NCBI GenBank assembly: GCA_903823665.1
Contig: CAIJTR010000202.1
Location: forward strand, 1 to 64,000
Origin: an uncultured Rhodospirillales bacterium
GTDB lineage: Bacteria; Pseudomonadota; Alphaproteobacteria; Acetobacterales; Acetobacteraceae
DNA: 64,000 nt
Reading direction: 5' to 3'
Position 1 is the first letter of the stretch. Every line of letters starts with the position of its first letter. The notes beneath the pieces are model-generated. The model saw nothing but the letters and a program-made list of their open reading frames with translations, did no database searches and was not told where the DNA came from. A program made the translations under genes and the position numbers. This document shows positions 2,014 to 36,574 of this stretch, piece by piece.

Positions 2014-2018
2014 CCCTG

Positions 2019-5718: not shown

Positions 5719-5719
5719 G

Positions 5720-6037: not shown

Positions 6038-6049
6038 CGGCCGGCACCA

Positions 6050-9006: not shown

Positions 9007-9030
9007 GGCCCACTCAATGGACATCGCCCC

Positions 9031-12586: not shown

Positions 12587-12587
12587 G

Positions 12588-16790: not shown

Positions 16791-16801
16791 GGAGGAGAGA
16801 G

Positions 16802-18353: not shown

Positions 18354-20429
18354 CTATTGTACGGCGTCCAATAGCCGAGGCGTGCGCGCCAGCGTCTTTT
18401 GAATGCCGTCTCGATCTAAAAGGCGCGCCTCTATTGTCGACGTAGCGATTTTCTCGGGGAGACATGAGCCGAATTTCAATTCCCTGATCATTTCTGAGGA
18501 AACTAAAGGACGAACCCAAACTGTTTCTATTTTTGATAAAGACTTGATCGCAGCCGCATCGCTCCCGCCTCTGATCGTAATACAAAAATCGTCCGAGCGC
18601 GATCCGGCTCCAGGAATGACTTGCGCCAGTGCCGCATTCGCCCGGCCGCCGGCAAAGGTCCAGATACGAAAAATATCCTGTCCATTATGGACGATCGGAA
18701 TTGTTGTCGCGTCGACGAATGGCAGCCGCTCTTGAACCTCCTCCAACTTAGATACCGCCCTGCGCGAAAGCCTACACCCAGGTGCAGCTCCAGCGATGAC
18801 TGCCTCCGCTGCACGACACACTGCGAATGATGCGGGCCTTCCACTACCAAGCCAGCGTGCTCGACCCTCTCCCTCAGCGGCCACAACGGAAACGCGACGT
18901 CGCGGCCAATTAACGTCGACTACGCGCCAACTACGTCCAGCCAAAAGTATGACAATCGGCTCGCCGTCCGGTAACGGAGCAACCGCTAGCGGGTGGATAG
19001 CACCGAGTTCGGTTCGTCCGAATGTAACTGAAAGGAGCATCGGACTACTAAAGCTGACGACGAGATCGCCGAAATGCCTTCGACCGAATTCCTGCTCAGC
19101 CAGCGCTCCCAGCCCAAGGATACCGGCATCCAAGCTCAGCATCCCAGTAGCAATCATGTGTTCAACAACATCCGCTTGGTCGCTCGGCGATATGGCTTCG
19201 AACGTCACTCCAAGCCAACTGTCCAAATCACTGACCGCGATGCCTTTTTCTTGCAGCACTAAAGCCATTATCTGCTGCGCGTAGATGTGAGCGGGCTGAG
19301 CGGGAGGTTCCACATGTTCGACGTACCCCTCTCGCCAAAGGCGGGCGATACCTAGAGCCAAAAGCAGTTCGGAATCACTTGTCGCTAGGAAGAGAAAATT
19401 GCGAACAGAGCCTGCTCTTCGACCGCTCCTCCCCATCCGCTGGAGAAAACTAGCGACAGATGGCGGTACACCTACCTGTATTACGCGGTCGAGTTCACCA
19501 ACATCGATTCCCAGCTCCAACGTCGATGTAGCGACAATTGCGCAGTCGGGCTCTGCAGCGAAGGCAGCCTCGGCTTGGCGCCGTTCGTCGGCAGACAGAG
19601 AACCATGGGAGACAAACGTCCGAACTCCTGCACGACGCAAACCGGCTGCAAGTTCCTCAACCCTGGCGCGGCTGTCTGCAAATATGAGCCTCCGTTCACC
19701 CCGATGGACGCGCGACAGGACTGTCACAGCGTTTTCAACCGAGCCAACGTGATCGGCCAAAACGTCTCCGGTGGTTAGCCCTGCGCCCGAGCCGACAATT
19801 CTCCCGCCCCTGTTCCGAGTAAGCCACGTCAACAAGTCATCTGGATTTCCGACTGTTGCCGATAGGCCAATTCGCTGAATGCGTTGTCCGGTGAGCCACT
19901 CAAGACGCGCAAGAATTGCGAGTAGGTGCCATCCCCGGTCGTCACCAGCGAATGCATGAAGCTCGTCGACAACAACCGCCCTTAGACCGCCTAGCAAAGA
20001 TTGATGGTCGATCCGGGCCGACACCAAAATTGCTTCAACCGACTCTGGTGTGGTGAGAAGAACGTCCGGTGCGTCCCGCAGCATCCTCTTGCGTGCCGGC
20101 TCGCCAACGTCACCATGCCATACGCCCACGGTGCGGCCAACGAAACCGGCGTATCGGCTGAGCCGGGGCTCAAGGTTGTTCAGCAAAGCCTTTAATGGGC
20201 ACAGATAGAGAATCGAAAGACCACTCCAGGACTGGTTTGCTGCGCGTGACAGCAGTGGCAAGAACGCCGCTTCGGTCTTTCCGCCAGCCGTCGGCGCAAG
20301 GAGGAGTACGTCATCTCCAGCGTGGATCGGAGCAATCGCGTCCCTTTGGGTCGCCCGTAGATCAACCCATCCCAGCGTATTGACGATGTGATATCGTAGG
20401 GCCGGGTGAAGCTGATCGAATGATTTCAC
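18354..20429 (-). CDS. brxHI: BrxHI, Lhr-like DEAH-box helicase of type 2 BREX
   Basis: 691 residues. Superfamily-2 helicase motifs are clear: Walker A APTAGGKTE (about 45-53), DELH box (155-158), LSATVGNP (about 189-196), the TSTLELGIDVG motif V region and QRMGRSGRR (motif VI). A C-terminal Lhr-type region follows. BrxHI is the helicase specific to type 2 BREX and is thought to act on DNA during host/phage discrimination. It is the last gene of the operon and overlaps brxD by four bases (ATGA). Its base composition is visibly less G+C rich than pglW-pglX at the other end of the same operon. Confidence 0.92.
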   Translation of the reverse strand: MKSFDQLHPALRYHIVNTLGWVDLRATQRDAIAPIHAGDDVLLLAPTAGGKTEAAFLPLLSRAANQSWSGLSILYLCPLKALLNNLEPRLSRYAGFVGRTVGVWHGDVGEPARKRMLRDAPDVLLTTPESVEAILVSARIDHQSLLGGLRAVVVDELHAFAGDDRGWHLLAILARLEWLTGQRIQRIGLSATVGNPDDLLTWLTRNRGGRIVGSGAGLTTGDVLADHVGSVENAVTVLSRVHRGERRLIFADSRARVEELAAGLRRAGVRTFVSHGSLSADERRQAEAAFAAEPDCAIVATSTLELGIDVGELDRVIQVGVPPSVASFLQRMGRSGRRAGSVRNFLFLATSDSELLLALGIARLWREGYVEHVEPPAQPAHIYAQQIMALVLQEKGIAVSDLDSWLGVTFEAISPSDQADVVEHMIATGMLSLDAGILGLGALAEQEFGRRHFGDLVVSFSSPMLLSVTFGRTELGAIHPLAVAPLPDGEPIVILLAGRSWRVVDVNWPRRRVSVVAAEGEGRARWLGSGRPASFAVCRAAEAVIAGAAPGCRLSRRAVSKLEEVQERLPFVDATTIPIVHNGQDIFRIWTFAGGRANAALAQVIPGAGSRSDDFCITIRGGSDAAAIKSLSKIETVWVRPLVSSEMIRELKFGSCLPEKIATSTIEARLLDRDGIQKTLARTPRLLDAVQ

Positions 20430-21745
20430 GCGTCAAGCTCAACATCGTCGACCGAAGTCGCACCTGCGCTAGCACGCTCGGCGACAGACAGCTCTCGTTC
20501 ATCAATAGTTGGCGCATAATGTCGCCGCGGATCGAATTCCGTAAACTGATCAACTCTGTCAAGTACGTCCGCAACGAGTTTCTTGAGGAAAATGCGAGGC
20601 GCAACCCCAACGCGCCCCCCAAATCGGCCAGCGACCGCACGAGCAAGATCTGCAAGATAAGCGTTGTCGACAACCGCGCGGACGCGCCCGCCCTGGCTCG
20701 CTTGCTCTGCAAAAAGGTCACGAACCCGCGCGCCTACCTGCACCAGGGCATCGAGATCAAACCCGGGAAGCCTTATTTGCACAGCCCGCGGATTATCGAA
20801 GCGCGCATCGGTCGCAAAGTCCGTGTGGATGCGCTGGGCTAAGGGAGGGAGGCGCTGAACACCCTGCGGCCCATCAAAGAAAGCAGACGTTCCAGTCACG
20901 ACAAGGAATAATCCCGGATACCGACCGGCATCCATTTCGTCGAGAAGCTGTCGGAGAGCGTTGAGTCCCTTCTCGCGAGTGTCGGCGCGCATTCGTTGTA
21001 ATGTCTCAACCTCATCAAGCACTAAGACAAGTCCTGGCCGCCCCGAATCTCGAAGGATGGTCAGCAGCCCAGCCAGAAAGTGCATTGCTCCGAACGGATC
21101 GAGATCGCCCTTCACGCCAGCAGCGCGCTTTACTGCGGCAGCGACGTTCGGCTGACCACCGAGCCAAGCGATCAATCCCTCAGCAAGCGCCGCCTCATCG
21201 GCTAGTAGAGCACGCCGGTAGGCACGCAACACAGCGGCAAAAGCCGGCGCGGTACGAGAAATTGTCGACAGCCTCTGCTCAACGAGAGCGTCAGTCGCAG
21301 CAACCAGTCCCTCCGCGTCACTGGAATCGATGTTCCCAGAAGCGAGTGCATCCTCCTCAAGGGTGTAAAACCACGCATCGACGATTGATCGAAGTGCGCC
21401 GTCCGGGGTGTCGGCAGTTGCGAGCCGTTCTGCGAGGCGACGATAGACCGTCTCCCAACGATGCAGGGGGGTTTCTGTCTCGGAGACTTGAACTTCACTT
21501 GTTGCAAAACCGCTGGTGGAGCGGGCGCGCTCTTCAAGCCATCGGGCAAAGAAAGTTTTACCGCTCCCATATTCGCCGCGAACCGCTTTGAAACCGCCCC
21601 GGCCCAGGGCAACGGCTGCAAGGTCAGCATCAATCGCGGCTTCGAACCTATCCATCCCCACTGCGAAAGCGGCGAGGCCCTCTCGCGGTACTGTCCCTCG
21701 GCGAAGCGCATCGAGTATCTCAGCGCGCCGCTGGGGGCCGGTCAT
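20426..21745 (-). CDS. brxD: BrxD, AAA-like ATPase of type 2 BREX
   Basis: 439 residues. Walker A is GEYGSGKTFF (about 57-66), and Walker B-like LVLVLDEVETLQR lies near 240. A sensor-like segment LFLVVTGTSAFFDG follows, and the C-terminal half is a winged-helix-like helical region. BrxD ATPases occur in type 2 BREX and resemble the BrxC/BrxD class of DNA-associated P-loop proteins. Four-base overlaps with pglZ upstream and brxHI downstream imply translational coupling. All motifs needed for ATP binding are present. Confidence 0.92.
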   Translation of the reverse strand: MTGPQRRAEILDALRRGTVPREGLAAFAVGMDRFEAAIDADLAAVALGRGGFKAVRGEYGSGKTFFARWLEERARSTSGFATSEVQVSETETPLHRWETVYRRLAERLATADTPDGALRSIVDAWFYTLEEDALASGNIDSSDAEGLVAATDALVEQRLSTISRTAPAFAAVLRAYRRALLADEAALAEGLIAWLGGQPNVAAAVKRAAGVKGDLDPFGAMHFLAGLLTILRDSGRPGLVLVLDEVETLQRMRADTREKGLNALRQLLDEMDAGRYPGLFLVVTGTSAFFDGPQGVQRLPPLAQRIHTDFATDARFDNPRAVQIRLPGFDLDALVQVGARVRDLFAEQASQGGRVRAVVDNAYLADLARAVAGRFGGRVGVAPRIFLKKLVADVLDRVDQFTEFDPRRHYAPTIDERELSVAERASAGATSVDDVELDA

Positions 21746-24399
21746 GGTCCACCGCCGATCTCGAACTGTAGCCGCAGAAGGCGCACGTCCAATATGACTT
21801 CATCGGCAGTCGCGTCGATTGAAAGAACCTGTGCCTGATCGACGTTGAGCACACGCCTCGTCGCATTAACGAGGCCAGAGGCACGGAAGGCGGGCAACTG
21901 AAGCGTCTGCGCGAGTGCCGTTCGTGAAAGTCTCCCGCCGCGTGCAGCAAGCGCCGCGACCAGTGCTCGGATGACCAGATCGTCCGGCGCTCCACGCCCC
22001 GCAAGCCCTCGCTGGGCCGCGTAAGTCGGCGATGTCAGAAGAGAGTCAATCCAAGCATCCGCTGCTGGTGTTACCTCGAACAGGCTGATTTGCTTTGTAT
22101 CGCGACGGCGACCGGGCGATGCTGGCGTAACGCTGGGTGCGGCTGGCGGCGCTTCGCCCTCGCCCCACCAGGCGGGCTCAGCGGGAGGTGCTTCAACCCA
22201 ATCCCGTGGCGCGACCCCACTGGTCAAGACCGCCAGAGGCACCAAAACTTCCTGAGGGCTCGCGCCACCGTGATAACCACTCCGCTTTGAGGCGTAGCGG
22301 AGTCGTTCGCTCCAGGCCAGTACCGCTCCTCGTGTGCCATCAGGAGACATTACGCGACCATCCCGTACTTCGATCTCGCCATCCCGGGCCCGCCCGCCGG
22401 ATCGCCACCGGTCGCCGGGTGCGGCTTGGACATAGGTGGTACCAGCATCGAGCACGTGACCGTGGTCCCCGGTCAGAACAACCAAACGACCAGCCTCCCT
22501 TGCTGCTCTCAGCACAGGTGCTAACTGGCGCAAGACCTCCGTGGACCAAAGGACTTCGATCTGGTCCGACCCGGCTAATTGCGCATCAACCGCGTTGTGA
22601 ACAATGCCGACGACTCGTTGTCCCGTATCGGTCAAGGCGGATCGAACACGTTCATCCAGCTCTGGTCCAGCGCCGAGGTCCGCTTTGTGGAATAGTAGTG
22701 GCGGCTTCCCAGCTCGTGACATCTCGCGGAGCCGTTGATGGACGCCAAAAGCACTACGCTCCGATGCGGCATCCCCGCGGACAAGGCGCCCGGAGAGAAG
22801 GCTTGTCCGGGAAGTCTCAGTAACTGTTGGAAGGGCCGCTACAACCGGAGGGGGCGAAGCTCGGCCCGTAGGGGAGAGCTCGGTCCAACCCTGACGACCG
22901 ATATCGGCGACCAACGGCCGCGCAACGGCGAAGCTCAGCCCATCGAGAACCAGCAGCAGAACCGACACATGTGCCGCAAGAGGTGCGACAATACTATCGA
23001 GGACACGCTCGATCGGTAACGCCTCGTCGCCTGCGGAGCCCCCTGCGTTCCAATCGCGGAGCAGGGCCGCGAAAGCGCTGTTCTCTTCTTCACGGCGAAT
23101 TCCGGCGAGTTCGCGAAGCCGCGCATAGGCCGCGGCGACAGCCGGAACACCATCGCCAGCTCTCAGCGACGTGCGCACCCAGTCCACAAAGCCGCCGTCC
23201 TCAGCATAGGCCCGCGCCGCACTACCGAACCCCGAGATTGTCCGGCGCCTCCCAAAGAGCCAGCGGCACAGCCTGGCAGCCATTTGCAGACGATCAAGCC
23301 TTGCGCGATGGTCGCCAGCGCGCTCGTGGCTGAGCGTAAGGCGCACCAACCGTCCAGCGTTCGCGAGACCTTGCGCACCACCGGACTCCGCCGCTTGGAC
23401 AATGGCCTCCGCAGCCGCGACAAGCCGCGCCTCAAGCCCCGCGGTGAGTGCGCGGCTCAACCCAGCGTGTTCCGTCGCGCGAACCGTCTCCAGCCAAACG
23501 AGTGCCCGCGCTTGGTGCCTTTGCGCGGAAGGGCCATCGAGCCGCGCGATGACGCGGCCGGCGGCATCGGCCAGCAGGCTCCCCGCGTCGGGGTCAACCC
23601 TGCTCCCGCCGAACGCCGGCTCCAGCCGCACAGCTGCGTCACGCAGGCTGTCGCTCGGTCCGGCCGTCTCGAAGATGACACCGCAGACCAACCCAATTGC
23701 TAGCGCGTCGGCCCCATGGCCAGCGGACACCGCCCTGGCCACCAGAGCAGCGGCGCTGCCGCCCTCACTTGCAACCTTCTCGAGAATCTTGTCCCGAGAG
23801 GCTTGAGGCAGCGCTTGAAACCGATCCAAATTGCCTTCGCCAGCAGTCCAGCCGAGCAGCGCACCGACGTCAGCGCGCGCGTCGGTCAATCCGACCGCGT
23901 GTTCGAGACAAAAACGCCAAGCGGTATCCAAATCCAGCACTCCGCCAGGGACTGGCGGATAGCCAGCCGCTGGTGGGCGCTCCAATAACAAATCAGAGAG
24001 CCAATCCTGGCCACGCAGGCGAGGGTCGAGATCACGTGCGGAAAAAGCAGCGCGAAGCGCGTCCCATCGGCTGGCCGCCATGAGCCGGCCACGCGGAAAG
24101 CGGGCCACAACGTCCGCGCCAAGCAGATTGTCTTCGAGGTTGGTGATCAGGAGTAGCCGGGCATCAGGGGCAGCCTCGATATCGGCAAGGGCTTCCCGGA
24201 TCTCCAACACGCTTTCGCACCAGGCGATCCTAAACTGCTTCCCGCGACGCTCGATGAATTCGGGCCAAGGGCGGCGCATTGGCGACCGCACGCCAAGAAC
24301 ACGTGCCTCCGGCTCGCGGTCGAGAAACGCCTCAAGCTGGCGTCGAGAAGGTGCGAGGAGTGGGCTCACCCTTTTCCACCATCCCGTGTGAGCCGCCAT
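21742..24399 (-). CDS. pglZ: PglZ, alkaline-phosphatase-fold protein of type 2 BREX
   Basis: 885 residues. The central PglZ domain has LLVLDGLSF (about 480-488, the metal-binding Asp region), TSLLSGRLVRGD and LTGDHGHVLDAG (about 643-654). A C-terminal helical region follows. PglZ is one of the two signature proteins of every BREX system and belongs to the alkaline phosphatase superfamily. It is essential for defence, although its substrate is not settled. The start overlaps the end of pglY by 34 bases, and no better downstream start is evident. Composition and length fit the type 2 branch. Confidence 0.93.
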   Translation of the reverse strand: MAAHTGWWKRVSPLLAPSRRQLEAFLDREPEARVLGVRSPMRRPWPEFIERRGKQFRIAWCESVLEIREALADIEAAPDARLLLITNLEDNLLGADVVARFPRGRLMAASRWDALRAAFSARDLDPRLRGQDWLSDLLLERPPAAGYPPVPGGVLDLDTAWRFCLEHAVGLTDARADVGALLGWTAGEGNLDRFQALPQASRDKILEKVASEGGSAAALVARAVSAGHGADALAIGLVCGVIFETAGPSDSLRDAAVRLEPAFGGSRVDPDAGSLLADAAGRVIARLDGPSAQRHQARALVWLETVRATEHAGLSRALTAGLEARLVAAAEAIVQAAESGGAQGLANAGRLVRLTLSHERAGDHRARLDRLQMAARLCRWLFGRRRTISGFGSAARAYAEDGGFVDWVRTSLRAGDGVPAVAAAYARLRELAGIRREEENSAFAALLRDWNAGGSAGDEALPIERVLDSIVAPLAAHVSVLLLVLDGLSFAVARPLVADIGRQGWTELSPTGRASPPPVVAALPTVTETSRTSLLSGRLVRGDAASERSAFGVHQRLREMSRAGKPPLLFHKADLGAGPELDERVRSALTDTGQRVVGIVHNAVDAQLAGSDQIEVLWSTEVLRQLAPVLRAAREAGRLVVLTGDHGHVLDAGTTYVQAAPGDRWRSGGRARDGEIEVRDGRVMSPDGTRGAVLAWSERLRYASKRSGYHGGASPQEVLVPLAVLTSGVAPRDWVEAPPAEPAWWGEGEAPPAAPSVTPASPGRRRDTKQISLFEVTPAADAWIDSLLTSPTYAAQRGLAGRGAPDDLVIRALVAALAARGGRLSRTALAQTLQLPAFRASGLVNATRRVLNVDQAQVLSIDATADEVILDVRLLRLQFEIGGGP

Positions 24400-27300
24400 G
24401 AGATCGACAGCCGCGCGCCGGGTTCCGCGCCGAGGCGAGACTGCAGACGGTCAAGTTCCGCCTTTGCATCTTCAATCGGGAGAACGTCCCAGGCCCTCTC
24501 CTCCAAGATCTCAGGACTCGGACTGGAGCCATCGAAGTCGCTGCCAGGCTCTACGCCGCCAGGGGGCGGCCGATTCCCGGTGTCTGCGGTGCCCGGTTGC
24601 CCGTTAGCACCCGCGCCCGCCCCACCGCCACTTGGCGCCGCTGCCGCCAGCAGACGGAAGGCATTCCGCTGAGCTTCGCGAAGCCGCGCCTCAAGTGGGA
24701 TGACGTGTTCGTCCGCCTCGAGCGCCTCTGCAACAGACCGGCCAATCTGCTCGGCCACCGCGCGTCGATGGTCCGAAAGAGCGGTGGCTGCGGCCAGCAC
24801 ATCCCACTCGAAGGACGCCAGGAAGGAGGCGAGGCCGGATGCCGCGGATATTGATCGTCCTACGGCGGCTTCGCTAGTCCGGAGGTCTGATGTTGCGAGC
24901 GACTGCACCACGGTCAACGGCTCGATACCGGCGGTCAACTCAGTCACAAGAACCGAGGCCGACAGCACTGTGATCATGCGCGGTGCGGTCTCGGGTGTTA
25001 CGCTCGCAGACGCCATCCTCGTCCGCAACACGCTCGTCAGCGTTGCCAGTGACGCACGTGCGGCGTGTGCCTTCTCCCGCAGTTCACTCGCCAATCGTGC
25101 TACTGTCGCTCCCTTGCGAACTTCTGAAGGCGTGAGGCCAAACACTTCCGCCGCGCGCTCACGCGCCTTCGTCCAGGTCGTCTCGTCAGGCAACGGCTGT
25201 GCAAGTAATTCCGCGTCGTCATCCAGCCGCTCGATAGCGCCTCGCACCGGTGCCCCACGCAGCGAAATCGTTCGATCGGCCTGCGCCGCGCAGGCGAGGA
25301 TAATGAGGTTCTCCACCTCTCTCGGCAGGCCCATCGGCCGCGGCTGATCAATCAGTGCTCGCAGCCGCTTCACCGTCATGGCGCCGCCGCCCTGCTGCGC
25401 CGCCAGCCGTGCGAAATGATTGGCCCAATGATCGTCGAGAATGAAATGCGTCAGGCCTTGGTTCATCGTGCCTAGCTTAAGCGGACCCGCGAACCCGCCA
25501 AGGATCTGACGCACCGCCCGATCCTCGATAAAGCGCCGCTGCTGTGGCTCCTCGGCGGCGGCTTCGATCTCCTTGAGCACTTTGCTCAATGCCGCGTTCT
25601 TCACTTCCTGCTCGAAGATCGGATGGGCGGGAAACCGATGAGCAAACGTCGAGTCGAGCAGCGCGCCCATCGCTTCTTTGAGTGTCGCCCCGACTGGTGG
25701 CTGAGGTCGGAACGTTCCGTCGAGCGAGACCAGATGATCCTCGGCTGAAACCTGAACAGCCAAAGCGCCGTCCTGATCCTGCCGGATGCCGTACGCGGCC
25801 TCCAGCACCATGCGCATTCTGCCCTGAAGCTGGCTTTGCTGGTTCTGGAGCAGAGACCGCGCCTGCTGCCGGTCGATCGCGGAGAGGTTGGGGGAGTTCT
25901 CCTCCAGTCGCGATCCAACCAGCAAATAATCGATGCGCAGCAGTGTGCCGAGGTCACGCAGCGCCCGATCGCCAAGCGGAGCGGCCACCCAGGCAATCGT
26001 ATCAGCCTCCTCGCCGAAGCGAGCCAGCCGCGCCTTATGGTCCGCCATCGTCCGGCCGTTCGCGTCGAAGGGCAGGCCGAGCAGCAGGGTCGGTGTTCCG
26101 GCGCGCCCTCGCAAACGCTCGTCGGACAGCTCGGCAATGCTTTCCAGCCAAACATCCACCTGGCGTCGCGTGCCGCGCCACAGATGCGGCACCTCGATGA
26201 ACCCCTGCGCGTTCAGCAACTCTCCGCCATTTGTATCGCCAATGCCCAGTGCGGCGAACAGAAGATCGCGAACCTTGCGGCGACGATTGCCGTCGTTGTC
26301 GTAGTGCGCGGCGTTGGCGAGGATAGGCTCGACATCCACACCAGTGATCTGCAGCGAGATGACGGGATTTGTGTCATCCGTCAGCTTGATTTCGCCAACC
26401 TGCGCGGCCCAGGTGCGGAGCTTGCCAAGGACGGCGCCGCCTTCGCGTCCCGGAATAGGGGATACAACGCTGCCATGATTCAGCGCTGCCAGCCGCGCCG
26501 CGGTGAGCGCCCGCAGCGACTCGACCTCCGGCACCAGGGCGGCCAGCAACAGGGTCTTCAGCAGGCGCGCATCGTTGCGCAAATTGGTCGCGGCGCGCGG
26601 GTCCGCGCGCCCTTCGGCCATGTCTTGCCAGGTGACGTTATGGGTCCGCTCCAGCAGCGGCAGCAGCTTCTGTGTCCACAGCTTCCGGGCATTCTCGAAC
26701 TGAATCCGCATGCCATCTGAAAACGGCTGGTCGCTGGTCGATATCGCGTCCCACAAATCGCCGACCGGGATCAGACTGCCCAGCCTCAGCTCATCCCTCC
26801 GTTCGACCAGCAGCGTCAGCATCAGCTTCAGCGCGGTGCGCTCCCGCTGAAGCACTGACGATGCGGCGATCAACGCCTGCACCAATGCCGGGCTGAACGG
26901 ATAGACCTGCCGGAACATCGAGCGCTCGCCGTCGGACCCGAGCAGCGTTTCAACAACTTCCTTGCGGCGGTTGAAGAACTCATCGAAGGCGTTATCGATC
27001 CGTATCTCGGCCACATCGTCGCGCGGTTTCAGAAGACGCCGCTGTGCGATCAGCGGCAGGTTCCGGTCTTCGAGGTTGATGCGGTCGAACCGCGCCTCCC
27101 AGTAGCGCAGGGTATCGGCAAACTGGAGCTGCAATGCGCCAGCCTGATTAGCACCGACGAGGTCACGTAGGTCCCGCTGGCGGGCGACGAAGGAGATGAT
27201 AGGAATAGGCCGGTCCGCACGCTGGGCCTCGACCAGCTTCGACAATTTCGCTCCCTCGGCCGAGACGAAATTCACATCGGCGGCGCGCGTCGCCAGCCAG

Positions 27301-28130
27301 AGGATGAGCTCATCGAGGAACAGGATCACCGCGTCATAGCCGAGGGCGCGCGCATGGTGGCTCATGATGGCCAGGCCGGTGTCGATATCGACGAAGGCTT
27401 CGCCCTTCGCGAGTGCCACGTCGGCATAGCCGGTGAAGAGCCGACCGATCAGATCGCCGACCAGACGTTGGCGCTGATCGCCGCTTGGCGGCTCCAGCAT
27501 AGCTGACTCGAACGACCCGGCATCCCAGGAGTCTTCGAGATCGCCCCATTCGCTTTCAGCATTGGCACGTTGGTTGAGCCTGCCAAAGAAAGCCTCATCG
27601 CCATAATGCGCGCGCTGAGCCTTGGCGTCCTCGAACAGTCGTTCGCCCAGGTAGAAACCGGGCACCGGCGCCTCGGGATGAATTCGGCGCACGTGCTCCG
27701 CGTAGCCGCCCAGCACAGCGCTTTCCACGTCCCTCGCGCCGATCATGTGGAAGGGCACCATCAGGAAGCGGCGCTGCTGGGTCCAGGTGTTGTGGCGGTC
27801 CACCACAGGCGCCAGCTCTGGAATCGCGCGGGCGCGGGCATTGCCTGCGAGCAGCAGGTTCAGGACTGCCATGAAGTGGCTTTTGCCGGAGCCGAACGAG
27901 CCGTGCAGGTAGCAGGCTGCGCTTTTGCGTTCTTCCGTAGCGCGCTGGATGAATCCTAACGCGTCGTCGAACGATTTCCGGAGTTGGTCGGTGACGACGT
28001 AATTTTTCACCGTCTCCTCGGCATGCGCGTCCGACACGCCTTCCGACAGTTTCAGAACGAAGTCGCCCTGATGCACGCGCTCTGGAATGGTGATCAGGTC
28101 GCGCAGCAGCGGTGCTTGCGTGTCGCCCAT
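24366..28130 (-). CDS. pglY: PglY, large P-loop ATPase of type 2 BREX
   Basis: 1254 residues. Walker A is HGSFGSGKSHF (about 76-86), and a hydrophobic Walker B segment VILFLDELILWLA lies at about 268-280. A long helical remainder and a Gly/Pro-rich linker near the C-terminus (about 1175-1215) follow. PglY is the type 2 counterpart of BrxC. An in-frame frame extends 54 codons further upstream, but I start at the ATG that shares its A with the pglX TAA (TAATG). That start gives the family-like beginning MGDTQAPLLRDLITIPERVHQGDF. The N-terminal region reads like BrxC/PglY family proteins, supporting the choice. Confidence 0.93.
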   Translation of the reverse strand: MGDTQAPLLRDLITIPERVHQGDFVLKLSEGVSDAHAEETVKNYVVTDQLRKSFDDALGFIQRATEERKSAACYLHGSFGSGKSHFMAVLNLLLAGNARARAIPELAPVVDRHNTWTQQRRFLMVPFHMIGARDVESAVLGGYAEHVRRIHPEAPVPGFYLGERLFEDAKAQRAHYGDEAFFGRLNQRANAESEWGDLEDSWDAGSFESAMLEPPSGDQRQRLVGDLIGRLFTGYADVALAKGEAFVDIDTGLAIMSHHARALGYDAVILFLDELILWLATRAADVNFVSAEGAKLSKLVEAQRADRPIPIISFVARQRDLRDLVGANQAGALQLQFADTLRYWEARFDRINLEDRNLPLIAQRRLLKPRDDVAEIRIDNAFDEFFNRRKEVVETLLGSDGERSMFRQVYPFSPALVQALIAASSVLQRERTALKLMLTLLVERRDELRLGSLIPVGDLWDAISTSDQPFSDGMRIQFENARKLWTQKLLPLLERTHNVTWQDMAEGRADPRAATNLRNDARLLKTLLLAALVPEVESLRALTAARLAALNHGSVVSPIPGREGGAVLGKLRTWAAQVGEIKLTDDTNPVISLQITGVDVEPILANAAHYDNDGNRRRKVRDLLFAALGIGDTNGGELLNAQGFIEVPHLWRGTRRQVDVWLESIAELSDERLRGRAGTPTLLLGLPFDANGRTMADHKARLARFGEEADTIAWVAAPLGDRALRDLGTLLRIDYLLVGSRLEENSPNLSAIDRQQARSLLQNQQSQLQGRMRMVLEAAYGIRQDQDGALAVQVSAEDHLVSLDGTFRPQPPVGATLKEAMGALLDSTFAHRFPAHPIFEQEVKNAALSKVLKEIEAAAEEPQQRRFIEDRAVRQILGGFAGPLKLGTMNQGLTHFILDDHWANHFARLAAQQGGGAMTVKRLRALIDQPRPMGLPREVENLIILACAAQADRTISLRGAPVRGAIERLDDDAELLAQPLPDETTWTKARERAAEVFGLTPSEVRKGATVARLASELREKAHAARASLATLTSVLRTRMASASVTPETAPRMITVLSASVLVTELTAGIEPLTVVQSLATSDLRTSEAAVGRSISAASGLASFLASFEWDVLAAATALSDHRRAVAEQIGRSVAEALEADEHVIPLEARLREAQRNAFRLLAAAAPSGGGAGAGANGQPGTADTGNRPPPGGVEPGSDFDGSSPSPEILEERAWDVLPIEDAKAELDRLQSRLGAEPGARLSISWRLTRDGGKG

Positions 28131-31100
28131 TATGCGGCCCTCCGGGTGCGGCCCCGACGGGGTGTGGCGGGCGGTATCCATGCGGCGACGGCCGCTTCGG
28201 TCATGCCGAGCGCCCTGGCCTCGGTTTGCACAAAATCCACGAAATAATCCCCCATGCGGGCGCCCAGGTCGGGGTCGTACTCGTTGTGCCATTGCAGGAG
28301 CCAGGGCACCAACTCACTCACGCCGGCGAGCAGAGGCAGCAAGCGTTCCGCCGGCCAGCCATCGCTGTCTTTGCGTTCTTGGTAATAGGCCGCAATAGCC
28401 AGGGCGCGTTTGAGATGGTTGTGGCCCGCCCAGATGATGACCAAGCTGCCATCGGCGTCGCGATGGCAGTGCGGGAACGACACGAAACGTTCCTTGGGTA
28501 CATCCAGGCCGCCGCGGAGCCGCCAGAAATCCGTGCTTTGAAAATCCTTGGTGACGTATTTCGGCGGCGCGGGGATGTCGCCGACCTCTTCTCGTTTGCG
28601 TCGGCACTGTTCCTCCACAACCAGGCGGTCGATAAGCTGTTCCACTTCCGGTGCCGCACCGGCCTGCATGCGGATCGCGTATGGCTCGGGTTCTTCACCA
28701 GGGCGGCGGGGATTGACGGCCAGCCATTGCTCCTGCGCCCGCCGCTCGGCTTGCGCGCGGAACGCATCGCGCCGAGCCGCCACCTCGGCATCGATTGCGT
28801 CTTCGCGCCGCTGCTTGTTCCAGGTTGCTTCCCATTGCGCCCGCTTGCGTAGTCCGGTTTCAGCGTAGCTCAGGGCGGACAGGAACGGCACGGACTCCCT
28901 CGCGACCAATTCAGTAACCAGGGCTTCCAGGTTTACGTCCGCGCGGCCGACGTAGAGAGTTGCAACAGAGAGAAAGTCCACGTCCCGCCGCAGCAGGTCG
29001 GTGAGTTGATTGGTGGAGAGCAAACGAACGTCGCTGCTGGTCCAGATGGATGGCGATTCCAGTCGGTCGAGCAGCCAGTTGCGCAGCGCGTCGCGCTCCA
29101 TCTCCTCCCACGGGTCGCTGGACCAGCGTCGCTTGTAGTCGGCGCGCTCGATTAGGCCGATCGTGAGGTCGTTCTCGATCAGTTCGATGCGCCGCTCGAC
29201 CACGTCGCGGTAGTCGGTCGGCCAGTGAGCGGGCAGCTCGATAATTGGGGTGGAGCGGTGGCGTTCGAACCAAGCCGTCTCCAACTCCCCAGCCGCCATC
29301 CGGCGAGCCATGACGATCTCGAAGGCGCGCTCCCCGAGTTGCAGTTGCGGCGGGTGCGGGTTTTCCGGGGGGGCCTCGTGAAGGTCGTAGAGACGGTAGC
29401 AACGCCAGTCGAGTTCCTCCTGCAGCGCGATCATGCGGGCGCGTGCCGCCTCCGCTTCGGCGCGGGCAGCGCTCAAGGCGTCCCGGGTTGGCAGGGCGCG
29501 GTCGCAGAGAGCGTTGGGGAGATTGGCCGAAAAGTGTAGCGCCTCGGCGTCGAGGCGACGGGCGAGCTCAAGGGGAAGCGTAGCGACCAAAGGGAAGTGG
29601 CCGACGTTCGTCGCGTTAAAAGCGTATCGTTCATCCCAAGTTGTGTTCTGGATGCGGGCACCCTGCGATCCGACTTGGTCGCCGCCCTTGTCCTTACATC
29701 TTGACTTCAGCCAGAAGCATGCGGTGGAGGAGTTGAGAAGGCCAAGAAGGCCCAGGTGTTCGTCCTCCGAAAAAGCAGCAGGCAGCTTAATGATCGGTGC
29801 TGTTTGGTTGAAAACCTTGCCGCCGCGGTCGAGGACGAAGTGGTTGTGCGAAGCGACCTCGCCGAATGTGATAGTAAGCGGGGTGCGGTTCCGCTCGATC
29901 GGGATCTGGTGATACTCCGCGAACGAGCGCCCAACTTCGCGATAGGTTCGGTTGCCAAAATCCCGGCGCGCAAGCAGCAGCGCCTTCCAAGGCCAAAGAG
30001 CGCGCTCCGTCCCCGCGTTAACAGTGAGGCAGATGTCGGCGTTGTAGGGGAAAAGAAGTACCCCACTAGACCGAGCAGACCAGTCGCGAACTTCCTCGCC
30101 GATGACTATCTCGCGCGTTGGGACCGCGCCGTTCGGCACATCACGTCGCCCAGTGATACTAAATGCTTCTACCTCGCTGACTATGCAGCCGAAGCCGATC
30201 TCCGGACGAAGGGTCGTGAGTGGCCGCCGGCCCTCCTCAATTGCCTCCTGCAACTCCGCGGCACCACCGCCAGCCATGTTCCAGGGATGCCGCGCCAGAG
30301 TATCCCGTGGCGTGTCTTCAGTGCTGACGAAAGCGCTCTGAGACTTCACTTGATCAGTTTGCATCAGGATCGCGGTCCAAAGCTGCCCACGCGCGGGATC
30401 ATCAACCGCGTCAGGGTCGCCCCGCATACCGCGGACTGTTCGCACCACTCCCGCCACCGGCGCACGGTTGCGGCCGAACAGCATTGCCGTGGAGGTGTTG
30501 TGACCCGGCAGTGGCACACCGGAGCAGCTGACCACATGAGTAAGATCCAGGCGCGCGAGGACGCGCTCAATCAGCTTCTTGCCGAACTCGCGCTTCATGA
30601 AGCTGTTGTCCACGATCAGTCCCACGAAGCCCGCTGGCACCTGATCCGTCCCCACCTGCGCCAAGTCGAAGAAGCGCTCAATGAAGGGGGCCGCGAGAGC
30701 GTATTTCCGATGACAGCTCTCGTAGATGTCGCGGTACGCGTCCCGCATCGCTGCATCGGGTGGCTGGATATACGGCGGGTTGCCCACGACGGCGTGGTAC
30801 TGGCGCCCCAGAATGCGATCGAGTTCCGCGGTGTCTTCCGCCACGTAGTGATGACGCAGCATCCGCCGGAACCCTTCTTCGGCCCCGCCCAACTCGTTAC
30901 GGGAAAAATGCCGTCCATGCAGCAGACTGTCGCCTGCCGCCAGATGCAACACGAAACCCGGCGCCGCCGCCAAGCGATTCACCTGCGCCCCCTGCAGTGC
31001 GGCCACCAGCAAGCGAAACCGCGCGATCTCCACCGCGAACGGATTGAGGTCCACGCCCGCGATCGCATCCAACGCACGCTGAGCCTGTTCGGCCGGCGGC

Positions 31101-31876
31101 AGCCCCGGTGCGAACCGCTGCCACTGCCGCAACAGCCGCGCGAATCCGCCAAGCAAGAAATGGCCGGACCCGCAAGCCGGATCGATCATCGTCACGCGTT
31201 CGTGGCCAAACTCGCGAGTGGCCGGCTCAAGCGTCCGATCTAGAATCCAGGACTCGACGAAATCCGGTGTCTGCAACAGCGCGTAGCGCTTGCGTGCCTC
31301 TTCTGAAAGATCCTGATACAGATCGCCCAGGAACCGTGTGTTCCATTCAGGATCGGTGAAATCATGCGCCAACTCGCCGGTCTCCGGCAGCACTTCGCGA
31401 AAAAAGCGAATCAAGGCCATCGCGCCGTCGCCTGACAACGGCAGGCGGAACAGCGGATTGTGCTCCGGGTCGAACAGTCCAGCGATGCCAGGAAGCCGCG
31501 CCGCTTCACCGAAGGTGGCGATCAGATATTCCGTGTCCGAGTCATGCGGCCGCGCCCGGAAATGCGCCTCTTGCCGCTCCTTCGCTAAATCCAGGCGTTC
31601 GCCAGGGCCAGACAAAAAGGGGCGATCAACCAGCAGGTTGTCTTCCAAAAAGCGCAGGAAAACGCACCCAAGCACCCAATGGACCACGGCCTGATCGAAT
31701 ACGCCGTCGAGGAAAGCCTCAAACGTGTCGCGCGTCCGGCCGAGATCGAACGCCTCTCGCCACTCGGCCTGCACAGCGTCCCGCTGTGCTCCGGCGGCGT
31801 GCGTCGTGCGCAGGTCGGCGTCGAGCACCTTTCGAAGGCGCTTCAGATCCGCGAGGAGTTTGCCGGCGTTGATCAT
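28130..31876 (-). CDS. pglX: PglX, adenine-specific DNA methyltransferase of type 2 BREX
   Basis: 1248 residues. The SAM-binding motif I is DPACGSGHF (232-240) and the catalytic motif IV is NPPY (366-369), the order of N6-adenine methyltransferases. A large C-terminal region, probably for target recognition, follows. In BREX, PglX marks host DNA at a non-palindromic site, so unmodified phage DNA is blocked. In the original Streptomyces Pgl system this enzyme is central to phage growth limitation. It starts 35 bases after pglW and couples to pglY. No frameshift or homopolymer tract of the phase-variable kind is evident. Confidence 0.95.
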   Translation of the reverse strand: MINAGKLLADLKRLRKVLDADLRTTHAAGAQRDAVQAEWREAFDLGRTRDTFEAFLDGVFDQAVVHWVLGCVFLRFLEDNLLVDRPFLSGPGERLDLAKERQEAHFRARPHDSDTEYLIATFGEAARLPGIAGLFDPEHNPLFRLPLSGDGAMALIRFFREVLPETGELAHDFTDPEWNTRFLGDLYQDLSEEARKRYALLQTPDFVESWILDRTLEPATREFGHERVTMIDPACGSGHFLLGGFARLLRQWQRFAPGLPPAEQAQRALDAIAGVDLNPFAVEIARFRLLVAALQGAQVNRLAAAPGFVLHLAAGDSLLHGRHFSRNELGGAEEGFRRMLRHHYVAEDTAELDRILGRQYHAVVGNPPYIQPPDAAMRDAYRDIYESCHRKYALAAPFIERFFDLAQVGTDQVPAGFVGLIVDNSFMKREFGKKLIERVLARLDLTHVVSCSGVPLPGHNTSTAMLFGRNRAPVAGVVRTVRGMRGDPDAVDDPARGQLWTAILMQTDQVKSQSAFVSTEDTPRDTLARHPWNMAGGGAAELQEAIEEGRRPLTTLRPEIGFGCIVSEVEAFSITGRRDVPNGAVPTREIVIGEEVRDWSARSSGVLLFPYNADICLTVNAGTERALWPWKALLLARRDFGNRTYREVGRSFAEYHQIPIERNRTPLTITFGEVASHNHFVLDRGGKVFNQTAPIIKLPAAFSEDEHLGLLGLLNSSTACFWLKSRCKDKGGDQVGSQGARIQNTTWDERYAFNATNVGHFPLVATLPLELARRLDAEALHFSANLPNALCDRALPTRDALSAARAEAEAARARMIALQEELDWRCYRLYDLHEAPPENPHPPQLQLGERAFEIVMARRMAAGELETAWFERHRSTPIIELPAHWPTDYRDVVERRIELIENDLTIGLIERADYKRRWSSDPWEEMERDALRNWLLDRLESPSIWTSSDVRLLSTNQLTDLLRRDVDFLSVATLYVGRADVNLEALVTELVARESVPFLSALSYAETGLRKRAQWEATWNKQRREDAIDAEVAARRDAFRAQAERRAQEQWLAVNPRRPGEEPEPYAIRMQAGAAPEVEQLIDRLVVEEQCRRKREEVGDIPAPPKYVTKDFQSTDFWRLRGGLDVPKERFVSFPHCHRDADGSLVIIWAGHNHLKRALAIAAYYQERKDSDGWPAERLLPLLAGVSELVPWLLQWHNEYDPDLGARMGDYFVDFVQTEARALGMTEAAVAAWIPPATPRRGRTRRAA

Positions 31877-31911
31877 GAAAGAGGGAATCCGAACTCAAAA
31901 ATCGTGAAAGG

Positions 31912-34900
31912 TCAGGCAGCGCTGCGTGCGGCCCCGGCCCGGTGGGCGTTGGCAAGCCATGGGTCGGTCAGTCGCGCCCAGTTGGCGGCGGACATGACCG
32001 GCAGGGATGCACCGTCAATCATCGGCATACCCCCATCCGCCTGGGCCACAAGCACCCATAGGCTGGGAGGGCCTCCCCTGGTGCCAGATGCTTGCGCGAG
32101 ATCTGTCAGCATCGGCATCAGATCGTACCGCGCGAGCAGTCCGGGGTTCACCAGCAGCGCCGGCCTGTCGAGGGCCAACAACGTCGCGAGCACGCGTTCA
32201 GCCGCTTTGGTGGCAAGGCGAAGGAGGTTTCGGAAACCCTTCCCGTCATGTCCTTCCGCATCCGCGGCCAGAACCACGGGCCATTTCACCTTTCGTGCCT
32301 CGGCTTCCGCACGCATCTCGCGCAGCAACAGCAATTCCAAGCTGACCCGCTCCCGCGGCGCGAACCGGCGTAGCAGTTCGGCCTCGGCGCGTGGGGCGCG
32401 GCGCGGATCGACCGTCAGAGCCAGAAAGGCCCCTGAGCGGCCAGCGCCGACGATTTTTTCTTCCAGCGACCGTGCGTCCAGCACCTCTGGCGTTGCCTGA
32501 GGCGCGGCGGCCAACGTGCCATAGCGCAAAACACCGGAGGGGCTGCCCCTGTCGGACGGGGTCACAATGCGGCTGACATAGCCACGCCCGTCGGGATCGT
32601 CGTCGCGCCAAATCCGCTCCGCGCCCACATCGTCAAGAAGGCGATCGAGATCCGGCCGTGGCGGCAACTGCGCCGCATCCGGGAACCGTCCTTTGACTCT
32701 CTCCCGAACGGCTTCCTCGGACAGCAATCGTGGGCCGGCCAGCGAGCCCAGGGAGAGCCGCAGGGCCGTCGCGGGCGACATTCCCCTCGGATACAGCTCG
32801 GCACGGGCCGAGAGCGACGCCGATTTGGAGGCGGCCGCCGCGAGTCGCAGCGTGCGACCGGGCGGTAGTGCCGTGCCGCCTGGCGGCGCGACCAGATTCA
32901 ATTCTTCCTCGACCCGCCCGGGCGAGGGCAGGGGATCCTCGAGCGCCATGCGATCGGCGATGGCACTGAGTGCGACGGCGTGCGCCGCCAGTTCAGGGCT
33001 GAGAGCCACCAGGATCGGGGCCTGATCGGCATACGAAGCAAAACGCGCGGTGTCGCTGGCCGAGGCTTCCAGTTCGATGGACGCGCGGAGAACAGCGCTT
33101 GCAAGTCTGCGGCGATCAATCTCGGAGTCCTCGACTGAACCGCGGGCGGCGAGCAACAGCGCCGCCAGCTCATCGGCTGTGGCGACACCACCGGCACTCG
33201 ACAGCAGCGACACCAATTCGGTGCGGAGCTCGTTGAGCTCCCGGCTCTTGTGCCAACGATCGCGTGCCTTGCCCAACACCGAGGCGACCGCACTACGGGC
33301 GACGCCTGCTTCGCGTGCGACGTCCCCGGCAGCGGGCCAGGACACCGGCCCGTCGGCGGGCTCAAGACCAAGGTAAAGTTCCAGCAACCGGTCTTCCGCC
33401 GTCTCATCGCCCGCGGGACGGCGCGGGATCAGGAGTTCGGAAAGCCGGTCCACGCTGGCCCAGGCCTGTGCATCCTCCGACCCACCGCCCGGCTTCAGTT
33501 CAGGTCTGATTTCGGCAAGGCGCTTGGCGCGTTCGCGGATTTCACGGCGGACCTTGTCGCTGACGCTGCGGAGATAGCGGAACCGGATGCGATCCACGGC
33601 GAGCAACTGCTGGACGGTATGCACACCCATACGATCGAGTACGTCACGCGCTTCGACGCTGTAGCCGAGCTCGGCGATCGTGCTGCGCCGATCGAGGCGG
33701 CGGGCAATGGTTTCAATACTGTCTTCGGCGATGGCGCCACGATCCAGCGGCTCGAAGGCCCGCCGCCAATCGCGCAGCATCTCCTCGGCATTGTCGAAGC
33801 GCTCCTCGGCGTTGCGACGCAGCGCCTGCGTAAAGAAGTCCCGCAGCCCCTCTCGCAACGTGGGATCAAAACGGTCCGTCGCGATTGTGGCCTCGTCCTC
33901 CGTGACGAGCGGTTCAGTCGCACCATCGCCCCAGGTGGGCGGGACACCGGCGACGAGTTCATGCAGGGTGACCGCCGCAGCATATCGCTCCGCATGCAGG
34001 TCCCAACGGCGCTGAGGCCGCAAGGCGAGGAAGGGATCGAGGTAGGGCCGTGTCCCGGCCTGGATGTTCTCGGGCGGTGTGCGGGTGAGCGAGAAATCGA
34101 ATAGGACAAGGCGCAGACGGCCGCTCCCGCCGGCAGGTGCTATGCCGATGTTGTCGGGCTTGATATCGCGATGGGCGACGCCTTGCTCTTCAAGGTGATT
34201 GAGCGCCTGGAGAAGATCTTCGCCGAAGCGGCGCATCAGATCGAGCGAGGGCATGTCATCGCCCCGCAACCGCTCGGCGAGGGTGCGATCGCCCGCCTTT
34301 TCCATGAGGATGGCAGCGCGACCGGAGACCGTTAGCGTGTCGATAATGCGGACGATGTTCTGGTGATGCAGGCGGCGCAGGACAGCCGCTTCGGCTTGCA
34401 GGCGATCACCGTGCGTCTCGTCTACGGCGACCTTGAGGACCAGTTCGTCATCCTCGCCATTGCGCCGGACCAGCAATGCGTCGGCCGTGCCGCCGCGACC
34501 GAGTTTGCGGACAACAACGAATCCGCCCTCAAGCTGGTCGTCCCGTTTCGCGATGCTCGGATCGACGGTCGTCGTGGAATCTTGCGCACGCGCATCCGTT
34601 TCGGCCAGGGCGAGATATTCGAGGAACTCACCGGCCGAAGCGATCCGATCACGCACAACAGGGGCGGTTGACGCGCGGACCAGGTCCTCGAGGAAGGTGC
34701 CGATACCATCAACTGCTTCGGCAAGCCGCAGCCCGCCGCCCTCGCGCAACTTCGCCGGCAACTCAAGTGGGCTGTCCGCCGGTGGACGACCTGTGAAGAG
34801 GTGGTAGGCGATGGCGCCGAGCGAGAAGACATCCGCCTGCGCGCCAGCTTCGCCGCCGCTGAGTGCTTCGGGTGCGAGATAGACCTTTGCCGGATCGCCG

Positions 34901-36063
34901 AAATGGTCGTCGATATTGCGGGTGCCCGACGTGACGGGAATGGCGGTCTGGCTCCCCTCGGCACGGGAAGCAACCTGCCAGTTCATGATTTGAAGCCGGG
35001 GTTGTCCCTCGGCAACGCCGTGCACCAGCACATTCTGCGGCGCCAGGCCGCGATGGTACAGGCGCTTGCCGTGCGCATGGCCAAGCGCCTCGGCCAACTG
35101 CCGGAGAAGCCCCAGACGCGCTTCCGCCGTCAGGTCCGATAGCTTTTCTCGTAAGAAGCGGTCGAGCCTGATCGAATTAGGGTCATGCTCGAATACAAGC
35201 GCAGGGCCAAGTTCCGTTTCACGGAAGTCGAGTACCCTGAGGATCCCGGGGTGATCGATCCCCTCAAGAACGCGGAACTCGCGCATGGCCATGCGGCCCA
35301 GGCGTTCGCGCTCATCAGGGGACGCGGCACGCGCATACGGATAGACCCTGACGCGGCGTGCCACTCCGAGGCTCGCGTGTTTCGCCACAAAATCCTGCCA
35401 GCCATCACCCTCACCGAGTAGAGCGCCGAGGAGGTAGTCACCGACCCGCCGATCGCGGCCGGCCGGTCGAATACCTGCTTGCTCGATCGATCGCGCAGTT
35501 GCGCGCGCAATATTCGAGTCAACTGATCCGGGTCGACCGAGCTCAGTATCCAACGTGCCCGTCAGCGCGGCGATGATGCCGGTGTCAGAGGCTCCGCGCG
35601 GGTTACCTCTCAGGAACACTCTGCGTGCTGTCCCAGGATCGATACGCGGCGGCTGTAGAACCTTTGAGAGGAAGATGACCTCCGTCACCCAAGGCACTCG
35701 ATTGGCGCCGCGGCCAAACGCATCCTGTCGCTTCAGCAGAGACGCAAGACGCTTTGCCTTCCGGTTGGCCAGCAGAAGCGGGCTATCGACGGTGTGCCTG
35801 CGGCCATCCGTCGTCCAAACCCAGCTATGGGCGTCGCCATCGATCGTGCCCGGCCGGCTCTTGATTTCGACCAGCAGGAGGCCTGCGGATGTCAGGACGA
35901 GCAAATCGACCTCGTTGACGCGCCCCTCGTCGTCCACAAACTCGAAGTTCGACCATGCCCGCCACGGGTCGTGGTCAGGCAAATGCTCGCGGAGGAACTC
36001 TAGAGCCTCGCGTTCCCACTCGTATGCAGAGGGGCTAACCACTGTCCAACGAGGTGGCTTCAT
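31912..36063 (-). CDS. pglW: PglW, NERD-domain serine/threonine kinase of type 2 BREX
   Basis: 1383 residues. The order is a NERD nuclease-related domain (about 12-110, with EVDLLVLTSAGLLLVEIKSR), a first kinase-like domain (about 208-485), then a second, canonical kinase (about 515-780). The second kinase has LGRGGTADA, Lys in LVLKV (544), HRDIKPDN (631-638) and DFS (656-658). A C-terminal helical region with helix-hairpin-helix and helix-turn-helix-like stretches follows. The first kinase reads HRGLAPQN instead of HRDLKPEN and lacks a DFG motif, so it is probably a pseudokinase. PglW is the hallmark of type 2 BREX. It opens the six-gene core. Its ATG overlaps the stop of the small upstream ORF as ATGA. 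Confidence 0.95.
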   Translation of the reverse strand: MKPPRWTVVSPSAYEWEREALEFLREHLPDHDPWRAWSNFEFVDDEGRVNEVDLLVLTSAGLLLVEIKSRPGTIDGDAHSWVWTTDGRRHTVDSPLLLANRKAKRLASLLKRQDAFGRGANRVPWVTEVIFLSKVLQPPRIDPGTARRVFLRGNPRGASDTGIIAALTGTLDTELGRPGSVDSNIARATARSIEQAGIRPAGRDRRVGDYLLGALLGEGDGWQDFVAKHASLGVARRVRVYPYARAASPDERERLGRMAMREFRVLEGIDHPGILRVLDFRETELGPALVFEHDPNSIRLDRFLREKLSDLTAEARLGLLRQLAEALGHAHGKRLYHRGLAPQNVLVHGVAEGQPRLQIMNWQVASRAEGSQTAIPVTSGTRNIDDHFGDPAKVYLAPEALSGGEAGAQADVFSLGAIAYHLFTGRPPADSPLELPAKLREGGGLRLAEAVDGIGTFLEDLVRASTAPVVRDRIASAGEFLEYLALAETDARAQDSTTTVDPSIAKRDDQLEGGFVVVRKLGRGGTADALLVRRNGEDDELVLKVAVDETHGDRLQAEAAVLRRLHHQNIVRIIDTLTVSGRAAILMEKAGDRTLAERLRGDDMPSLDLMRRFGEDLLQALNHLEEQGVAHRDIKPDNIGIAPAGGSGRLRLVLFDFSLTRTPPENIQAGTRPYLDPFLALRPQRRWDLHAERYAAAVTLHELVAGVPPTWGDGATEPLVTEDEATIATDRFDPTLREGLRDFFTQALRRNAEERFDNAEEMLRDWRRAFEPLDRGAIAEDSIETIARRLDRRSTIAELGYSVEARDVLDRMGVHTVQQLLAVDRIRFRYLRSVSDKVRREIRERAKRLAEIRPELKPGGGSEDAQAWASVDRLSELLIPRRPAGDETAEDRLLELYLGLEPADGPVSWPAAGDVAREAGVARSAVASVLGKARDRWHKSRELNELRTELVSLLSSAGGVATADELAALLLAARGSVEDSEIDRRRLASAVLRASIELEASASDTARFASYADQAPILVALSPELAAHAVALSAIADRMALEDPLPSPGRVEEELNLVAPPGGTALPPGRTLRLAAAASKSASLSARAELYPRGMSPATALRLSLGSLAGPRLLSEEAVRERVKGRFPDAAQLPPRPDLDRLLDDVGAERIWRDDDPDGRGYVSRIVTPSDRGSPSGVLRYGTLAAAPQATPEVLDARSLEEKIVGAGRSGAFLALTVDPRRAPRAEAELLRRFAPRERVSLELLLLREMRAEAEARKVKWPVVLAADAEGHDGKGFRNLLRLATKAAERVLATLLALDRPALLVNPGLLARYDLMPMLTDLAQASGTRGGPPSLWVLVAQADGGMPMIDGASLPVMSAANWARLTDPWLANAHRAGAARSAA

Positions 36064-36371: not shown

Positions 36372-36574
36372 CGACCATCGCCCGCCTGGCTAATTCGCGG
36401 CAGCGCCGGTGAATCGATTAGCTTCGGCGATGCGTCGATAAACTGCCGGATGGCTTGGCGGATGACCCACGAGACTGAGGCGTCTCGCGCCAACGCGATC
36501 TCATTTAGGGTCCGATAGTCCTGCTCTTCGAGGCTTACCGTCAGCCGCGTTGCCTTGCGAGGGCGCTCGTTCAT
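36368..36574 (-). CDS. Ribbon-helix-helix (CopG/Arc-like) DNA-binding protein
   Basis: 68 residues with the compact pattern KATRLTVSLEEQDYRTLNEIA (beta strand then helix A) and DASVSWVIRQAIRQFID (turn and helix B). This is a classic ribbon-helix-helix dimer fold. Such small proteins repress their own and adjacent operons. It sits just upstream of pglW in the same direction and is linked through the small ORF by ATGA overlaps, so it is a good candidate regulator of the BREX operon. It could also be the orphan antitoxin half of a toxin-antitoxin pair, but no toxin gene is adjacent. Confidence 0.8.
   Translation of the reverse strand: MNERPRKATRLTVSLEEQDYRTLNEIALARDASVSWVIRQAIRQFIDASPKLIDSPALPRISQAGDGR

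Follow-up and report, generated by a model that had tools for sequence, protein, structure and literature searches.

The 64,000-nucleotide stretch analysed here (the window), taken from contig CAIJTR010000202.1 (C202) of an uncultured Rhodospirillales bacterium of the Acetobacteraceae, carries at 18354-36063, on the minus strand, the six genes of a type 2 bacteriophage exclusion (BREX) or Pgl system, pglW, pglX, pglY, pglZ, brxD and brxHI, each of which translates without interruption (Table 1). A preliminary description of this DNA, made from the letters alone, had proposed a complete and intact set in one direction in an alphaproteobacterium, and both the set and the host class were borne out, the former by the uninterrupted minus-strand frames and by profile matches for all six proteins. 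Between pglW and pglX there is a gap of 35 bp, pglX and pglY share one base in TAATG, and pglZ/brxD and brxD/brxHI overlap in ATGA and GTGA, respectively. These last three junctions agree with the couplings of four bases or fewer described earlier from pglX onward, whereas the pglY/pglZ junction does so only if pglZ starts at GTG 24369 (overlap of 4 bases) and not if it starts at ATG 24399 (34 bases). In a relative from the same family (genome G398, locus L241; G, C and L numbers are our handles for genomes, contigs and loci), pglY ends at 8249 and pglZ starts at 8246, which favours the 4-base overlap. The mechanically called open reading frame of pglY begins upstream of ATG 28130, at 28292.

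Table 1. Coordinates of the BREX genes and of the surrounding features in the window.
Feature	Position	Strand	Remarks
HlyD, MacB-type exporter, DUF2254 and SPFH genes	715..7051		Pfam; further probable cargo beyond trbB
trb conjugation (mating-pair) cluster: trbB, trbC, trbE, trbK/J, trbL, trbF/virB8, trbG, trbI, small gene past trbI	7404..17077	+	Pfam; frames open
LysR-type regulator	17013..17933	-	Pfam; final gene of the presumed element backbone before the BREX genes; 98% identical in G457
brxHI, superfamily 2 (DEAD/DEAH-type) helicase	18354..20429	-	691 aa; GTG start
brxD, ATPase	20426..21745	-	439 aa
pglZ	21742..24399	-	885 aa from ATG 24399, alternative GTG 24369; alkaline-phosphatase fold by family
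pglY, BrxC-like AAA+ ATPase	24366..28130	-	1254 aa from ATG 28130; Walker A 77-84, Walker B 268-274
pglX, adenine-specific DNA methyltransferase, type 2 form	28130..31876	-	1248 aa; DPACGSG 232-238, NPPY 366-369, DUF7008 tail
pglW	31912..36063	-	1383 aa; NERD nuclease-like domain 14-132, pseudokinase ~256-429, active-type Ser/Thr kinase 516-763, C-terminal region
Small ribbon-helix-helix (CopG-type) gene	36380..36574	-	65 aa searched; Pfam RHH_1, E=4e-11; between tRNA-Gly and pglW
Repeats GCTTACA (36840, 36851) and TGTAAGC (36878)	36840..36884		Adjoin the presumed attachment site; also near the C20 integrase
tRNA-Gly(GCC)	36937..37011	-	Probable integration site

In PADLOC, each protein matched its model over nearly its full length (PglW 1496 bits, PglX 1534.5, BrxC-PglY 1442, PglZ 803, BrxD 672 and BrxHI 888.7), and because the scores are high over such lengths for all six, the matching of the six-gene set is not due to chance. 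The curated NCBIfam models gave the same names to PglW (BREX_PglW, NF033442, 1476 bits against a cut-off of 990, residues 5-1374), PglX (BREX_2_MTaseX, NF033451, 1500 against 400), PglZ (BREX_PglZ_2, NF033446, 759 against 200) and BrxD (BREX_BrxD, 658 against 350). Pfam recognised NERD and two Pkinase stretches in PglW, DUF7008 and Eco57I in PglX, PglZ in PglZ, BrxC_BrxD in BrxD, and DEAD and Helicase_C in BrxHI. PglY is the dissenting case, its full-length match to the NCBIfam BREX-2 PglY model reaching 1011.9 bits, below the cut-off of 1700. BrxHI is named by none of the best 25 of 31 NCBIfam models for the helicase, all of which score below their cut-offs, so that its name rests on the PADLOC score and on its position; it forms a linked pair with BrxD through the GTGA overlap, both members being assigned by profile. 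PglW and BrxHI, the two proteins for which the preliminary description had proposed a profile test, were therefore both assigned to BREX. PADLOC also matched BrxD to SngB (105 bits) and BrxHI to SngC (379 bits), as would be expected if a Shango-type or a DUF499-type, BREX-related system had been misread as BREX, but the BrxD and BrxHI scores lie far above these, which refutes a Shango identity, and PglW, PglX and PglZ are assigned to type 2 BREX by their scores, making such a misreading exceedingly improbable.

Catalytic motifs were compared with homologues from up to 56 loci (53 loci from the PglW scan plus three regions from two genomes of the class), dropping frames below 60% of the length of the window protein; one contig, of G148, enters twice (L037 and L048). 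The alignments held, own sequence included, 49 PglW, 39 PglX, 29 PglY, 16 PglZ, 3 BrxD and 3 BrxHI sequences, that is 2-48 relatives per protein, the counts from PglY to BrxHI being small because the loci end. In PglW, the NERD residues E51, D53, E66 and K68 agree with the relatives, as do K544, HRD 631-633 and DFS 656-658 of the second kinase. The SAM (S-adenosylmethionine) motif and NPPY of PglX are intact as in the relatives, both Walker motifs of PglY are as in the relatives, D486 and D645-H646 of PglZ are conserved, and the motifs of BrxD and the helicase motifs of BrxHI also agree. The earlier statement that motifs are conserved in every protein thus holds by alignment, except that the first kinase of PglW is a pseudokinase, as in most relatives: it lacks the catalytic residues, reading HRG, and NWQ replaces DFG (N in 42/47, W in 46/47 and Q in 44/47). 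This is consistent with the pseudokinase described for type 2 PglW in excerpts of PMC12839542, which also describe the C-terminal half of PglW as holding a BrxA-like triple winged helix-turn-helix and an iSTAND module; in the window protein, the NCBIfam search gave on the C-terminal side a weak match to RNA polymerase alpha (756-848, E=8e-4).

Judged by description, the operon resembles the Pgl system of Streptomyces coelicolor in its six core genes, in the NERD, pseudokinase and kinase make-up of PglW, in NPPY, in the Walker motifs of PglY and in the aspartates of the PglZ domain. It differs in belonging to a proteobacterial branch, in forming a single tight operon that probably lies on an integrative and conjugative element (ICE), and in having the small ribbon-helix-helix gene upstream. 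According to excerpts of PMC4365076, resistance in S. coelicolor requires the ATPase activity of PglY and the kinase activity of PglW, and PglX is a DNA methyltransferase that is toxic without PglZ. By analogy, PglX would place N6-methyladenine at a single site in the DNA of the host, and incoming DNA that lacks this mark would be detected jointly by PglW, PglY and PglX. PglW would then signal through its kinase or cause damage itself, and PglZ, together with a BrxHI helicase loaded by BrxD and perhaps with the NERD nuclease of PglW, would stop phage replication, PglZ also restraining PglX and possibly cutting. The intact genes and motifs suggest that the operon may be functional.

The system might instead act as in the Streptomyces model, in which the phage is modified in the first cycle and meets restriction only on infecting another host. 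The proteins are the same as those of Pgl, and the motifs of the PglW kinase, of PglX and of PglY have counterparts that were tested in S. coelicolor (PMC4365076, in the excerpts); nevertheless, direct evidence for methylation of phage DNA in primary infection is said to be lacking, and a BREX-like mechanism favoured, in the excerpts of PMC12839542. In addition, the excerpts of PMC4365076 describe a phase-variable G tract in S. coelicolor pglX, whereas the window pglX has no long G tract, and in its place there is a single run of seven C at codon 835. We therefore regard a first-cycle modification as unlikely and prefer self-marking of the host. The seven-C run (seven G at window 29367-29373) is the sole G/C run of at least 7 in the window, and it is too short to argue for phase variation of pglX, an idea that we dropped. 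Among the 53 PglW-scan loci, G/C runs of at least 8 occur in six, where they were not placed within pglX.

The ribbon-helix-helix protein is possibly a regulator of the operon. It is 97% identical in L041 (see below), but this was the only PglW-scan locus in which it was found (E up to 1e-4), and the flanks of four other BREX loci of the family did not show it (E up to 1e-6), so that we rejected it as a conserved BREX regulator, although both searches may overlook so short a protein.

The mobile setting of the operon is an addition to the preliminary description. The operon is placed between the trb cluster and the LysR gene on the left and tRNA-Gly(GCC) on the right, and the last 47 bases of the tRNA gene (36937-36983) have one further copy in the genome, next to a tyrosine integrase gene of contig C20. 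The GCTTACA/TGTAAGC repeats look integrase-arm-like and element-borne. A further contig, C162, carries reading frames free of internal stop codons for a relaxase, a signal-peptidase-like protein, RepA and a Sno-type helicase, the names coming from Pfam on homologues in G457 (of another genus of the same family) that are 92-94% identical (relaxase 94%), and an open frame whose translation, read by eye, resembles a VirD4/TraG coupling protein. C162 and C20 overlap at their ends by exactly 117 bases, trbI is single in the genome (E up to 1e-40), and in G457 the trb genes, a C162-like part and a C20-like ParB/ArdC part stand together on one 95.6-kb contig. We read C202, C162 and C20 as probably one ICE of at least 77 kb, and consider with good confidence that the complete type 2 BREX operon is cargo at the tRNA-Gly end of this trb-type element in an acetobacterial genome.

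The closest known elements are presumably trb-type ICEs of the Tn4371 kind. The window element shares with such ICEs an integrase, a ParB-like protein, RepA, a relaxase, a coupling-protein-like frame and trb genes, and differs from them in the tRNA-Gly(GCC) site and in having BREX between LysR and the attachment site.

Several observations weigh against a single element with BREX as its cargo. Its genes are spread over the three contigs, and an end-overlap search did not find the C162-C202 junction. The C20 integrase has no match in the G457 contig, and beyond the tRNA repeat C20 carries a tRNA-Gly terminator-like sequence and then GCTTACA again, so that a tandem second element is possible. 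In G402, a sister genome from the genus of the window, tRNA-Gly and its thioredoxin/LON flank are as here; the other flank matches contig C196 of our genome at 77%, and in C196:1-14000, the stretch matching this chromosomal flank, no tRNA-Gly repeat was present. The operon could be taken as part of the chromosome or of a decayed island, with the adjoining trb genes an unrelated remnant, a reading consistent with the contig split, in which both ends are never on one contig, with G490 (same genus, same site), where only a partial trbI (157 aa aligned) lies beside the tRNA, and with the flanks of the family type 2 BREX loci of G398, G542, G552 and G469, in which trb had no match. However, no internal stop interrupts any frame of trb, relaxase or RepA, their products share 85-99.6% identity with the G457 counterparts, and the identity with L041 begins exactly at tRNA-Gly in another context; we hold this alternative to be quite improbable, and retain the ICE. 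The start of the contig (window 1-300) is a repeat with a 95% copy on contig C30 of the same genome, from which the contig break inside the element may stem.

L041 is a 6-kb contig filed under a metagenome-assembled genome of Acidobacteria, and it is 97.6% identical to the window exactly from the first base of tRNA-Gly to pglX codon 68, where unrelated sequence interrupts the gene close to the end of the contig. The flank before its tRNA differs from that of the window and holds a frame that reads as transposase-like. We take L041 as a second genomic context, and claim no jump between phyla because the bin label may be wrong. In G402, the tRNA-Gly site lacks the GCTTACA/TGTAAGC repeats over the 1000 bases past the tRNA. 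As a separate observation, in Magnetospirillum molischianum DSM 120 (L049, 1080-13869) pglW lies directly past trbI and in the same direction as trb, which is opposite to the window arrangement, giving a second trb-linked type 2 BREX.

The backbone of the element can be followed in relatives. Window 7311-18020 is 94.4% identical to G457:C140:29507-40216 (10.7 kb), with homology stopping about 90 bases past LysR; the genes at 715..7051 had no match in the G457 contig. In the place of BREX, G457 (L186, G457:C140:10741-30740) has model matches to HNH, LmuB, DrmMI, DpdE/DrmD and DruE and a 441-aa protein without match, possibly a mixed Druantia/DISARM-like system, and its contig ends before any attachment site. 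The slot of G426, 15.4 kb from LysR to tRNA-Gly, holds a 13.9-kb operon (L135:550-14434) for a helicase, a DUF1156 methyltransferase, an Hsp70-like protein, DUF7680 and a DUF499 ATPase. HmaB and HmaC are the best models for the methyltransferase and the ATPase, while the helicase scores higher with BrxHI/BrxHII, PLD-helicase and DrmD models than with HmaA. In G522 the slot is 1.65 kb and has a glutathione transferase gene, and in G421 a type I restriction-modification operon follows LysR, with no attachment site seen. PADLOC scoring covered nine loci, namely L135 (8 proteins), L138 (2), L186 (8), L208 (5) and one large protein from each of L187, L195, L199, L200 and L207. Defence matches were obtained in three of the nine, L135, L186 and L208 (type I restriction-modification), and none in L138 or in the five single-protein loci (E up to 1e-15 for the five).

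The systems that may be exchanged in the slot include type 2 BREX, a DUF499/DUF1156 BREX-related system and a DruE/DrmMI/DpdE-like cassette with an HNH gene. Tentatively, the LysR-tRNA-Gly stretch could be a docking slot in which whole modification-based defence systems are swapped on a conserved conjugation backbone, while the PglX-PglZ pair might also hold the element in its host. In such a scheme the ICE would spread the BREX system and PglX toxicity would keep the element in the cell; given the toxicity that PglX shows in Streptomyces when PglZ is missing, the operon should favour retention of its carrier. If the docking slot is real, BREX would spread and be swapped in the manner of a cassette.

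Not every conserved sequence beside tRNA-Gly belongs to such an element. An apparent conserved 'element end' in many family genomes looked, in a 15-sequence alignment, mostly like the terminator hairpin of the tRNA itself, with the GCTTACA/TGTAAGC-like repeats as the sole part of element-borne appearance, and for this reason tRNA-Gly-adjacent matches do not count elements. The layout of the element family is also not uniform, because in L192 and L205 the integrase gene is at the trb-LysR end, unlike in the window element. In L141 (G409:C1:2118682-2138681), two copies of the tRNA-Gly 3' end at 44 and 5975, 5.9 kb apart, may delimit a small island at the same site. Near the integrase end of the element in our own genome, C20 (L035) carries at 8204-11669 an AAA+ ATPase and subtilase pair, possibly a further defence pair.

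Exchangeable defence cargo in a conserved backbone is also found in the ICE and genomic-island hotspots of Vibrio and Pseudomonas (e.g. PMC12629846); the window differs from these in being an acetobacterial trb element with type 2 BREX cargo. Among the titles and abstract openings of the literature on BREX with ICEs, tRNA, hotspots, Tn4371 and Acetobacteraceae, none names the window element, elements of Vibrio, Proteus and Pseudomonas being among those reported, and we do not claim its absence from print. Type 2 BREX is also carried by plasmids of Sphaerotilus, Thiodictyon and Polaromonas, with annotated pglW/pglX, and by an unannotated record of Azospirillum oryzae; their PglW and PglX homologues are 46-54% identical to those of the window, about half of the residues being different, and the operon of the window differs further in probably lying on a tRNA-Gly ICE.

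In our view, the operon itself is intact and ordinary and belongs to a system already known, the informative part being its mobile setting and the exchangeable slot, and the understanding of BREX itself is unchanged by these findings. Kinase signalling marks the type 2 branch of BREX, for which the experiments consulted were made in Streptomyces. A compact operon from a proteobacterium, with its motifs intact, is a convenient test object, and the close relative of the probable ICE in G457 (94% over 10.7 kb), with another defence cassette, offers a natural comparison for how such systems move and whether PglX-PglZ stabilises the carrier.

Type 2 BREX outside the actinomycetes is already known, a 2026 survey counting 1309 taxa of which 1039 are actinomycetes (PMC12839542, in excerpts). 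The description of type 2 as the less common branch fits the host group, where PglW exceeded the curated cut-off in 3 of the 385 genomes of the class and in 6 of the 397 of the family, counting our own; it was not found in the seven sampled genomes of the same genus besides our own (E up to 1e-150). Flanks were fetched for four of the five other PglW-carrying family genomes, the contig of G638 being too short. In G398, G542 and G552, the other five genes follow in the same order and with tight couplings, at 53-83% identity per protein from PglX to BrxHI. The remaining genome, G469, has a type 2 BREX locus (L246, G469:C2:174097-194096) with apparently broken frames for pglX, pglY and pglZ.

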